From: Halobacteriales archaeon YIM A00013
GTDB lineage: Archaea > Halobacteriota > Halobacteria > Halobacteriales > Haloarculaceae
Assembly (NCBI GenBank): GCA_025041195.1
Contig: JAKCFM010000001.1
Span: 682,001 to 746,000 of the forward strand
Length of the DNA stretch: 64,000 bases
Reading direction: 5' to 3'
This document shows, piece after piece, positions 6,255 through 26,867 of this stretch (the first letter of the stretch is position 1; the number at the start of each line of letters is the position of its first letter). The position numbers were made by a program, and so were the translations under genes. The notes under the pieces were generated by a model. The model had not been told where the DNA came from, made no database searches, and saw only the letters and a program-made list of their open reading frames with translations.

Positions 6255-7202
6255 ATGGCAGCTCCCTCCGTTGCCTCCATTCTGGTAGTGGTGCTGATAG
6301 TCCAGCTCATCCTCGCAGTGGGGGTGCTGATAGACGCCAATCGACGCGAGCTCACCCATCCACTGGGATACGCCTACGGTGTGTCCGTTCCACTCGCTGG
6401 TTATCTCGTGTTCGCAGCGTATCTCACACGCCGAAGAGAGCTGCCACCCAACGCTGCGCACCCTCAAACTCATTCCGAACCAGAGTCGGAGTTTGTCTGG
6501 ACGATCGAAAACCGTGGGCTCCGTCGCCTCCCCTGGCGACTCGCCTACGCCATCCAGGACGGAACCACGCTGTGGCGCGTGGCAAAAACTACTCCACTGC
6601 TGCTGTTGGTCTGCACCATCCTCGTGGACCCACGGATCGCGAACTTTCTGATCCTGTTCTGCTTGCTGTTCTGGCTGACGTATCTGACTACCGCTCGGCT
6701 GTTCATTGACACGACAGTGCGACTGCAGCCCTCAGACGACACGATCCAGGTGACCGGACGCGGCAGCGACCATCCACTCTCACCGGGCAGATACGATCAC
6801 GAGATCGATCTCTCGGAGCTCACCCGCGTTGAGCTTCGCCGCGTGGGAACGCAGCCGCTTGCCATTCTCCGATATACAAAGCGGTTTTCTAACAGTCCTC
6901 GCTCGCTAGTGGTTCCCGACGAACAGCTCGCAGAACTCAGACATCTGCTGGACGCGAATGACGTCCCGATTCATGACCGCATTCGGGATGGTTCGAGCCG
7001 TGGCGCAGTCCAACGGCGGTGTACCGAAGGAGTCGTCTCACTGCTCGTCCTCCCGCTCGCCACTGGCGTAGTTTGGCCACAACACAGCCTCTCGGGCCCG
7101 GTGGTTGCATTTTCGCTGTTTTGTCTCCTCTGGCTTGCAGTGAAAGGTGTGAACGACGTGATCGAGTACGCCAGCACACAGCTGCGAACGGCCTTGCGAT
7201 GA
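6255..7202 (+). CDS. Hypothetical membrane protein, about six TM segments
   Basis: 315 aa, not recognised. Hydrophobic segments occur near residues 8-26, 40-58, 112-125, 127-148, 262-278 and 281-300. Between TM4 and TM5 lies a soluble region of about 110 residues with a PH-like pattern (LRRVGTQPLAILRYTKRF, SLVVPDEQLAELRHLLD), the sort of domain seen in bacterial-type bPH/YdbT-like membrane proteins, though this is only a resemblance. The start is supported by the TATA box at 6226. The gene on the right runs convergently. Confidence 0.7.
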   Translation: MAAPSVASILVVVLIVQLILAVGVLIDANRRELTHPLGYAYGVSVPLAGYLVFAAYLTRRRELPPNAAHPQTHSEPESEFVWTIENRGLRRLPWRLAYAIQDGTTLWRVAKTTPLLLLVCTILVDPRIANFLILFCLLFWLTYLTTARLFIDTTVRLQPSDDTIQVTGRGSDHPLSPGRYDHEIDLSELTRVELRRVGTQPLAILRYTKRFSNSPRSLVVPDEQLAELRHLLDANDVPIHDRIRDGSSRGAVQRRCTEGVVSLLVLPLATGVVWPQHSLSGPVVAFSLFCLLWLAVKGVNDVIEYASTQLRTALR

Positions 7203-7205
7203 ACG

Positions 7206-7574
7206 TCACGACGCGGCGCGATCAGCCAACAATCGGTCGTGACGAGCGCGAGAGAGTAGCTCCGACAGCGCTGAAACGAACTCCCTGACAACCGCGTCGT
7301 CCGTACCGAACCGCACCTGAATAATGTCACCGTCAGATGACGGATCGATTTGATAGTCGGTCCACGAGCAACAGTGCGATTCGTTCCAGACGAGCTCGGA
7401 GACAACGTCGTACGCCACTACGTCCAAGATGCCGTCAACCACCTCGGCCGCGATGCCAATTACCACAACTGTAAAGACATTCGCTCTGCCCTGAAACTGT
7501 TGCTGGTAAACTCGAATATTGCCGTCTCGTTGCCTGTCGCAGCCTATTTCGGCTATTGTCGTGGTTTTCTGCAT
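7206..7574 (-). CDS. Hypothetical protein
   Basis: 122 aa from ATG 7574 (MQKTTTIAEIGCDRQRDG); another ATG at 7589 would add five residues. A mixed alpha/beta pattern is visible, with a hydrophobic core (VVVIGIAAEVVDGILDVVAY) and a C-terminal amphipathic helix (VREFVSALSELLSRARHDRL). Residue use resembles haloarchaeal proteins. No membrane span or motif is recognised. It converges on the membrane protein at 6255 and diverges from the carboxylase gene. Confidence 0.55.
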   Translation of the reverse strand: MQKTTTIAEIGCDRQRDGNIRVYQQQFQGRANVFTVVVIGIAAEVVDGILDVVAYDVVSELVWNESHCCSWTDYQIDPSSDGDIIQVRFGTDDAVVREFVSALSELLSRARHDRLLADRAAS

Positions 7575-24523: not shown

Positions 24524-25351
24524 TCATCGGCCGTCCAGACCGACATCCCCTGTCGTGGGCGAAGCAACCGAATTCGGTGTGGTGATCTCGGAAGCTTGCG
24601 ATCGATAGTGGTCGAACAGTTCGCGTGCCCACGCTATCAGTGCCGAACTGGTGGCCTCAAGACAGGCCGTGAGCCGATCGTCGTCGTACGAACACACCAG
24701 CACTCGGTCGTCGCCGATCGTAATCCCAGCTTCGATCGGTCCTGGATGGCGAAACACCGTGAGCGGTGCCACCGAGACGAGGAGGTCGAACTCTCGCGGA
24801 TTGAGACGCCGTGCGCGCTCGCTCAGCTGCTCCGTAAGAATCAGCTCAGTGTGGGCCCCTCCCAATCCGAGTTCAGCGTGTGCGCCGTGGAGTGGCCTCG
24901 ACAGCACTGGCGAGAGCATCCGCACACGCTCGGTTTCGAATCGTTCGATCGCCTGGAGATACTGATGCAACGGTCCGTGGGGCTGCCCCGGCGTGACGGT
25001 CGTCACCGTAGCCGATGAGAGCGCGGTTGGCGGTGGTGCGTGATCGACGTCGGAAAACGCGTCAACTATCGGCGAAAATCGATCGATAGCAGCGAGCTCA
25101 TCGCTGTAGCGCTTGTGTGCCTCCACAACGAGAGCACCACTCGTTGTCACTCGATACGCCCCATCCACCTTCTCCACCCACCCCCGCCGGGTAAGCGCTG
25201 TGAGATTTCGCTGGACGCTGCGGCGAGACATCGAAACCGATGCAGCAATCGATGATGGACGACCGGGCGAGTCCCGAAGCTGACGCAACAATGCTGCACG
25301 CTCAGGAGATCGTGCGAGAAACTGGTTTGGATCCTGTGAGTGCCCAGTCAT
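24524..25351 (-). CDS. Winged-helix regulator with FilR1-like sensor domain
   Basis: 275 aa from ATG 25351 (MTGHSQDPNQFLARSPERAA); the long upstream open frame is promoter DNA. Residues about 12-75 are a winged helix (SSIAASVSMSRRSVQRNLTALTRRGWVEKVDGAYRVT). The C-terminal half (PHGPLHQYLQAIERFETERV onwards) matches the middle/C-terminal domain of the methanogen FilR1-type regulators widespread in haloarchaea, a likely ligand-sensing domain. It diverges from cdc6 across a 313-nt gap holding repeated 20-bp motifs. Those motifs could be its own operators. Confidence 0.82.
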   Translation of the reverse strand: MTGHSQDPNQFLARSPERAALLRQLRDSPGRPSSIAASVSMSRRSVQRNLTALTRRGWVEKVDGAYRVTTSGALVVEAHKRYSDELAAIDRFSPIVDAFSDVDHAPPPTALSSATVTTVTPGQPHGPLHQYLQAIERFETERVRMLSPVLSRPLHGAHAELGLGGAHTELILTEQLSERARRLNPREFDLLVSVAPLTVFRHPGPIEAGITIGDDRVLVCSYDDDRLTACLEATSSALIAWARELFDHYRSQASEITTPNSVASPTTGDVGLDGR

Positions 25352-25403
25352 AATTGCAGTTGGAAGTGGATGGTGAAAAGCACATCTCCCCAGGGGGACG
25401 GAC

Positions 25404-25424
25404 ACAGTACATTTCGTCTGTTCT
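25404..25424 (+). repeat. 20-bp motif, copy 1 (direct)
   Basis: ACAGTAC followed by ATTTCGTCTGTTCT. Identical to copy 2 over the full motif; the two starts are 54 bp apart. Confidence 0.85.
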
Positions 25425-25457
25425 TCACCAGAGGCGGGGTGCCATCGAGTGAGCGAG

Positions 25458-25478
25458 ACAGTACATTTCGTCTGTTCT
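25458..25478 (+). repeat. 20-bp motif, copy 2 (direct)
   Basis: Same motif and orientation as copy 1. Surrounding bases differ, so conservation is confined to the motif. Confidence 0.85.
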
Positions 25479-25552
25479 GATGGAACGGATTGCTGAATAG
25501 GATTAGTTCTTATGGTAGCGGCAATAGCTATTCGGTCTATCGAATCGAGGAC

Positions 25553-25572
25553 GAACAGACGAAATGTACTGT
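25553..25572 (-). repeat. 20-bp motif, copy 3 (inverted)
   Basis: GAACAGACGAAATGTACTGT is the exact reverse complement of 20 of the 21 bases of copies 1 and 2, facing them across the AT-rich spacer. Confidence 0.85.
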
Positions 25573-25593
25573 GACACCAACACTTAAATGACG

Positions 25594-25614
25594 AGAACAG
25601 ACGAAACAGACGAA
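25594..25614 (-). repeat. 20-bp motif, partial inverted copy plus half copy
   Basis: AGAACAGACGAAA (25594-25606) matches the conserved half of the motif in inverted orientation and is followed directly by a further CAGACGAA half copy (25607-25614), just upstream of the cdc6 TATA box. Confidence 0.7.
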
Positions 25615-25620
25615 CACAGC

Positions 25621-25630
25621 TATTATATAC
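25621..25630 (+). promoter_or_regulatory. TATA box of cdc6
   Basis: TATTATATAC lies 35-44 nt before the ATG at 25665, so a short leader is expected. The adjoining partial motif copies could allow autorepression. Confidence 0.5.
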
Positions 25631-25664
25631 ACTGTGGTTGAAATGATCTGGTATTGAATCGTAT

Positions 25665-26867
25665 ATGAAAGACCCATTTGAAGGTATCACTGAACAGCTA
25701 TTTGAGAATAAGCACGTTCTTGAGGAGGACTACGATCCCGATACGATTCTGGAACGAGAAGCGGAGATTGAGGCCTACCGGAACGCGTTGAAAGACATTC
25801 TGTTCGGCCGAACCCCCGCAAACATCTTCATCTATGGGAAGACGGGTGTGGGAAAGACGGCCGTAACTCGATTCATGATGGATGCGCTGCAAACCCAGGT
25901 CGAGGGGCGTACGGCAGCAGATCGGCTCACAGTGTTGTTTCACAACTGTAACAATGATTCGGCGTACGGCACCCTCCGCGCGTTTATTAACACGCTCAGA
26001 TCACCGTCCGGGCCTACCTTCCCGAAAAAGGGACTTTCGACCAGTGACGCACTTGAGGAGTTCTACGCACTCCTTGACGAGCGAGGGGGAACGTTTCTGC
26101 TGGTTCTCGATGAGATCGATCATCTCGCGAAAGTGAACTCACTGCTTTATGAGATCCCACGAGCACGCTCGAATGGAAATCTCGAACGAGCGAAAATTGG
26201 GGTGATCGGCATCTCCAACAACTATCGGTTTAGAGATAGTTTAAGCCCGAAAGTAAAGGGAACGCTGATGGAAAAAGAACTCTCGTTTTCGCCCTATGAT
26301 GCCGACGAACTCCGGAACATCCTCTCTCATCGTGCCGAAAAAGCATTCATCGAAGGCGGATACAAACAGAGTGCGATAGCCCTCTGTGCAGCAAAGGCCG
26401 CACAGGACACCGGAAGCGCAAGACAGGCGCTCGATCTGTTGAGTACTGGTGGCGATATCGCGGAAGATCGTGGTGAGGACATCGTGACGGATAAACACAT
26501 TCGAGCCGCTGAAACCCGCGTCCAGCGCGGGCGCGTCCGGAACAAAATTCAGGATCAAACACCCCACGGACAGCTCATTCTTGAGGCGATCGCCAGACTC
26601 GAAGCGAATGAAAAGACACCCGTTCGATCGAAAACCATTCAATCAACGTACGAACGGGTAGCAAACCGCTGGCAGACTGAACCGCTGTCGTCGCTGCGTA
26701 GCGTCCAGGACCACCTCTCAGAGCTGAAAATGCTTGGATTTCTCTCTCGGACGGAACGAAACGACGGCCGGGCTGGTGGTGCCTACTACGAGTATGAGCT
26801 CGCGATGGACGCAAACGCGGTCTTTACCGCACGCAAGGAGATCGAACACGAGGAACCCACTACCTGA
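25665..26867 (+). CDS. orc1/cdc6: Orc1/Cdc6-family replication initiator
   Basis: 400 aa. AAA+ ATPase of the archaeal origin-recognition family: Walker A IYGKTGVGKTAVTRFM near residue 52, Walker B LLVLDEIDHLAK near 145, sensor-1 VIGISNNYRFRDSL near 186, and a C-terminal winged helix (about 300-390: GQLILEAIARLEANEKTPVR through LSELKMLGFLSRTERND). It binds origin boxes and loads the replicative helicase. Length is typical for secondary haloarchaeal Cdc6 paralogues. Repeated motifs lie immediately upstream. The AT-rich region downstream (26868-27110) carries no gene. Confidence 0.93.
   Translation: MKDPFEGITEQLFENKHVLEEDYDPDTILEREAEIEAYRNALKDILFGRTPANIFIYGKTGVGKTAVTRFMMDALQTQVEGRTAADRLTVLFHNCNNDSAYGTLRAFINTLRSPSGPTFPKKGLSTSDALEEFYALLDERGGTFLLVLDEIDHLAKVNSLLYEIPRARSNGNLERAKIGVIGISNNYRFRDSLSPKVKGTLMEKELSFSPYDADELRNILSHRAEKAFIEGGYKQSAIALCAAKAAQDTGSARQALDLLSTGGDIAEDRGEDIVTDKHIRAAETRVQRGRVRNKIQDQTPHGQLILEAIARLEANEKTPVRSKTIQSTYERVANRWQTEPLSSLRSVQDHLSELKMLGFLSRTERNDGRAGGAYYEYELAMDANAVFTARKEIEHEEPTT

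Follow-up and report, generated by a model that had tools for sequence, protein, structure and literature searches.

Introduction

Haloarchaea have several replication origins per cell, each with its own initiator, and the control of each of them is largely open. The orc/cdc6-ORB module as a kind is well established. The haloarchaeal origins adjacent to orc/cdc6 genes were described as having ORB-like inverted repeats immediately upstream of an intact orc1/cdc6 gene and box sequences specific to the initiator subfamily, with several such origins per genome, and their ORBs were described with a G-string (Wu et al. 2012, PMC3528665). The locus reported here, found in a window of 64,000 nucleotides from the Halobacteriales archaeon YIM A00013, shared the upstream inverted repeats and the subfamily-specific box sequence. 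Its boxes carried a GA tract at the end instead of the G-string, which set them apart from the origins as described in that paper. A secondary origin of the main chromosome with its own Cdc6, as predicted for the window, is represented by oriC2-cdc6E of Haloarcula hispanica (PMC3936714). That origin also has downstream ORB arrays, which were present in several orthologues of the window locus, whereas no boxes were found downstream of cdc6 at the window locus itself. The plasmid pHME132 of Haloferax mediterranei (WP_004060577, NZ_CP039142.1) encodes an initiator 52% identical to that of the window and resembles the window locus in its arrangement, with two direct boxes, a spacer, an inverted box and tandem half-boxes next to the TATA box, but it differs in the box variant, TTTCGAGTGTT, and in being plasmid-borne. 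The differences of the window locus from the known kind are a box class without the G-string and a promoter tandem that co-varies with the boxes.

Results

The box array lies between an orc1/cdc6 gene and a divergent regulator gene

The gap between the two divergent genes (25352-25664) and its flanks contained the following features.

24524-25351, minus strand: divergent FilR1_middle/HVO_A0261_N regulator gene, from domain matches; a neighbour outside the module
25401-25424, plus strand: predicted ORB copy 1, GACACAGTACATTTCGTCTGTTCT, from repeat comparison, genome search and orthologue flanks
25455-25478, plus strand: predicted ORB copy 2, GAGACAGTACATTTCGTCTGTTCT, from the same three sources
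25479-25549, no strand: spacer between the convergent ORBs, putative unwinding region; AT content, with the role inferred
25550-25573, minus strand: predicted ORB copy 3, inverted, from the same three sources as copies 1 and 2
25595-25615, minus strand: tandem half-ORBs with a 9-bp period, GAACAGACGAAACAGACGAAC; predicted autoregulatory site, from conservation and variant match
25623-25629, plus strand: probable cdc6 TATA box, TTATATA, from its sequence and its constant distance of 6-8 bp to the tandem in most orthologues
25665-26867, plus strand: orc1/cdc6 initiator gene, 400 aa, with AAA+, lid and winged-helix domains

Repeat comparison and genome search confirmed the two direct and one perfect inverted 20-bp copies of the original prediction. 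The direct 24-mers at 25401-25424 and 25455-25478 were 96% identical, and copies 2 and 3 formed a perfect 20-bp inverted repeat. The 16-bp core TACATTTCGTCTGTTC occurred in exactly three copies, two direct and one inverted, and no other copy with up to two mismatches was found in the 3.73-Mb, three-contig genome. No 16-mer in triplicate appeared in 2000 Markov shuffles of the gap or elsewhere within the window; a chance repeat was ruled out by the shuffles and by the uniqueness in the genome. The boxes included inverted copies around an AT-richer spacer, as expected of an origin with at least two inverted ORBs. The spacer had been called AT-rich, and it was indeed richer than the window, but the enrichment was moderate (55% for 25479-25552 against 43%). 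The "partial copies" reported earlier were also present, but they formed one tandem unit, a separate conserved element beside the cdc6 TATA box.

Both flanking genes were as the original prediction had them. The array was directly upstream of an intact orc1/cdc6 gene starting at 25665, and the gene on the other side of the gap was a divergent FilR1/HVO_A0261-type gene. The orc1/cdc6 product contained the motifs GKTGVGKT (Walker A) and LVLDEID (Walker B), matched TIGR02928 at 405 bits, and had the Pfam lid and C-terminal winged-helix domains. An intact adjoining Orc1/Cdc6 with AAA+ and winged-helix domains is expected of an archaeal orc1/cdc6-adjacent origin. Among phage relatives, only a 27% match, in Halorubrum virus BJ1, was found.

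The oriC1 of the same chromosome was located on the same contig at about 2.36 Mb, and its boxes were of the classic CAGTGGAAAC...GGGG type. Its distance to the window locus is about 1.07 Mb by the short way if contig 1 is circular. Like the window locus, it had inverted ORBs upstream of an orc1/cdc6 gene, but with the CAGTGGAAAC core and the G-string. The window locus had neither the CAGTGGAAAC-type core nor the conserved Cdc6A of an oriC1 and was rejected as such. The presence of a separate classic oriC1 supported the reading as a secondary origin with its own Cdc6, which had been proposed from the unlikeness of the motif to the main-chromosome box. The GC skew, strand bias and third-codon-position skew showed no inflection within 400 kb around the window locus or oriC1; since the oriC1 control also lacked an inflection, the skew test had no power.

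The boxes follow the initiator and not the regulator

The motif had also been considered as a possible operator of the regulator, and a comparison of the orthologues of both genes had been proposed to decide. The sequence TACRTTTCGTCTGTT was searched in 59 relative genomes, and eight of them gave matches. The motif tracked cdc6, with 33 of the 35 matches, spread over seven genomes, adjoining orthologous cdc6 genes. The eighth genome (G008) contained two matches in a small repeat cluster, and a cdc6 was lacking from the 10 kb examined. Boxes of a similar kind, GACGAAATGTACTC / GACGAACTGTACTC, some of them in tandem units of ~117 bp, were clustered at about 556.6-557.1 kb of G008:C4 and possibly represent orphan boxes or a remnant origin.

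The genome of the window was close to Halocatena and Actinarchaeum halophilum. Five of six congeners had a cdc6 orthologue with 83-98% identity, and the sixth (G002) had neither the orthologue nor the motif, although it possessed a regulator 50% identical to that of the window. Chromosomal synteny was maintained in G001, G003, G004 and G005. In G003 and G004, where the local order was ADH, moaB-like, cdc6, FAH, DnaJ and DnaK, the array was intact, and the cyclo-ligase-like, epimerase and regulator genes were absent from the syntenic place. The plasmids of Halocatena marina carried the cdc6 with its boxes and none of the chromosomal neighbours. Copy 1 is placed about 50 bp ahead of the regulator start codon, within a shared divergent promoter region, a position that would fit operators of the FilR1-type regulator. 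However, the array persisted without the regulator in G003, G004 and the H. marina plasmids, and the regulator of G002 was kept without the motif. The motif therefore belongs with the initiator; it did not follow the regulator orthologues, and the operator reading is hardly credible. As judged from these sequence comparisons, the motif is genuine, occurs nowhere else in the genome, and is conserved together with the initiator and independently of the regulator.

The box family is specific to one initiator subfamily

Of 392 genomes of the order, 70 had an orthologue of cdc6 at E up to 1e-115. The flanks (600 bp on either side of the gene) of 73 orthologues, 87 kb in all, contained 109 exact copies of the TTTCGTCTGTTC core, or 196 when up to one mismatch was allowed, whereas the 24 kb of flanks of 20 paralogous cdc6 genes contained none, exact or at up to one mismatch. 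The orthologous cdc6 genes themselves contained no such cores, and boxes frequently occurred on both sides of the gene. A profile of 366 sites from 76 loci gave the consensus (GA)nGAGAGTAC(A/G)TTTCGT(C/G)TG(T/C)TYT, in which a G-string at the box end was not conserved and a GA tract was found on that side. On the opposite strand the core reads ACAGACGAAA, which by eye resembles the CAGTGGAAAC core of oriC1. No relevant mention of the box sequence was found in the literature searched. The box sequence was linked to the initiator subfamily, as in known origins. Since the boxes followed the cdc6 orthologues and not the paralogues or the regulator, we interpret them as an initiator-specific ORB array and the locus as a predicted secondary origin.

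The module also occurred on circular plasmids of H. marina of about 360 kb, which carried the cdc6 and 12-13 boxes, mostly with an exact 56-bp spacing. The statement on plasmids was based on the complete H. marina records because G006 was a contaminated assembly that had coordinates in common with G002. In plasmid NZ_CP109981.1, twelve boxes with exact 56-bp spacing were located upstream of cdc6 (about 6925-7550 of the piece examined), and the plasmid of a sister strain had one 56-bp unit fewer, so the unit number differs between strains. Each H. marina plasmid contained a second cdc6, and the plasmids are thus not decisive for this cdc6 as the sole initiator. On plasmid NZ_CP119792.1 of Haladaptatus sp. 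QDMS2, two copies of this cdc6 with its upstream and downstream boxes were found at about 3.9 kb and 573 kb; this pair is a duplicated origin module. On the 256-kb replicon G000:C3, about ten GAAACAGTAGAAG-like repeats flanked another cdc6 at 188.6 kb and are probably the origin of that replicon itself.

The ORBs could be genuine and the origin nevertheless dormant in the wild type, firing only once the primary origins are lost. Dormant orc/cdc6-ORB origins of normal architecture have been documented in Haloferax mediterranei (PMC4595724), and one was suspected in Haloarcula hispanica by the description in PMC3528665. The absence of the module from one congener and its location on a plasmid in another are as expected for a mobile origin. 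Against dormancy, the four genomes named above retained the chromosomal synteny, and the boxes are still well conserved throughout the genus. We regard a dormant origin as possible but rather unlikely.

The box dinucleotide varies with residue 369 of the initiator

At its last two positions, the 11-bp core varied among the orthologues, with TT, CT or TC. Residue 369, in the winged-helix region, was the protein column most associated with this dinucleotide: R or Q was found with TT, L with CT (21 of 23) and E with TC (10 of 10). On the tree, at least six changes of box class had occurred, and the three well-supported switches all agreed with residue 369. Just three independent contrasts were available, with which a sign test is unable to reach significance, and the support is therefore suggestive. 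The covariation would be consistent with direct recognition of the boxes by the initiator.

Tandem half-boxes are located beside the cdc6 TATA box

The tandem, made up of two half-boxes, was conserved in position and strand. It was located 6-8 bp upstream of a TATA-like sequence in 63 of the 65 orthologues measured (s.d. 1.5 bp), whereas its distance to the start codon was much looser in the 65 orthologues (s.d. 10.7), and its strand was fixed among orthologues. At up to one mismatch, it was present in 68 of the 76 orthologous promoters and in 3 of the 20 paralogous ones, and it did not occur in any of 4000 random pieces. In 60 of 73 loci, where 28 would be expected, the first two bases of the tandem agreed with the ORB variant of the locus itself. 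When one locus was taken per genus and variant, the agreement was 29 of 34 against 12 expected, and none of 10,000 permutations was as high. The tandem sequence thus follows the ORB variant, which suggests autoregulation.

A motif-blind analysis of paralogous cdc6 promoters revealed a 9-bp periodicity, with a mean of 12.5 of 18 compared with 8.3 for 158 control genes (p 3e-11) and no signal at the other lags. Many paralogous haloarchaeal cdc6 promoters displayed a 9-bp tandem half-box pattern upstream of TATA, e.g. ACAGCGGACACTCCGGACACTGCGGACAGGGGTGGTTTTAT. No 9-bp tandem was visible near the TATA of oriC1's own cdc6.

The regulatory look of the TATA-adjacent tandem would also fit boxes that serve only the transcriptional autoregulation or titration of Orc1/Cdc6, with no replication start at the locus. 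Orc1-2 of Sulfolobus is described as a non-initiator regulator (PMC9738581), and downstream ORB clusters reduce the activity of the H. hispanica oriC2, likely by titration (PMC3936714). However, convergent full boxes were hundreds of bases away from the promoter and in many cases flanked the gene on both sides, and the module was carried on circular plasmids, though these have a second cdc6. A purely regulatory role of the boxes is therefore improbable.

Discussion

We propose that the array represents the ORBs of the adjoining Orc1/Cdc6 and that the locus and gene form a self-contained replicator-initiator module, a predicted secondary origin of the main chromosome, to which we assign a probability of about 0.87 from sequence comparison. 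The modest AT content of the spacer, the missing G-string in the family consensus and the two G008 matches lacking a cdc6 in the 10 kb examined speak against this reading. The convergent boxes (25401-25478 and 25550-25573) would serve as binding sites of the initiator, with the spacer between them unwound for MCM loading. A further binding site may be the tandem half-boxes (25595-25615) directly ahead of the TATA box, where the bound initiator would limit its own transcription by negative autoregulation.

DnaA represses at its own promoter. The tandem half-boxes beside the TATA box suggest that the initiator of the window locus also controls its own gene, and in the simplest reading, it would sit beside its own TATA box and block transcription. 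No report of such self-repression of cdc6 was found in the open-access papers searched. It is an even question whether the same holds for most haloarchaeal orc1/cdc6 genes outside the oriC1 type, which would then have an autoregulatory box of two to three half-ORBs at 9 bp directly upstream of TATA. The sequence of this box would co-evolve with the ORBs of the same gene, so that self-repression by each initiator would be independent.

The locus yields a predicted initiator-box code, in which residue 369 is set against the last two bases of the box, and a predicted site of self-repression next to the TATA box of cdc6. If the proposal for the wider group is true, haloarchaea would have a feedback per origin, like the autoregulation of DnaA.
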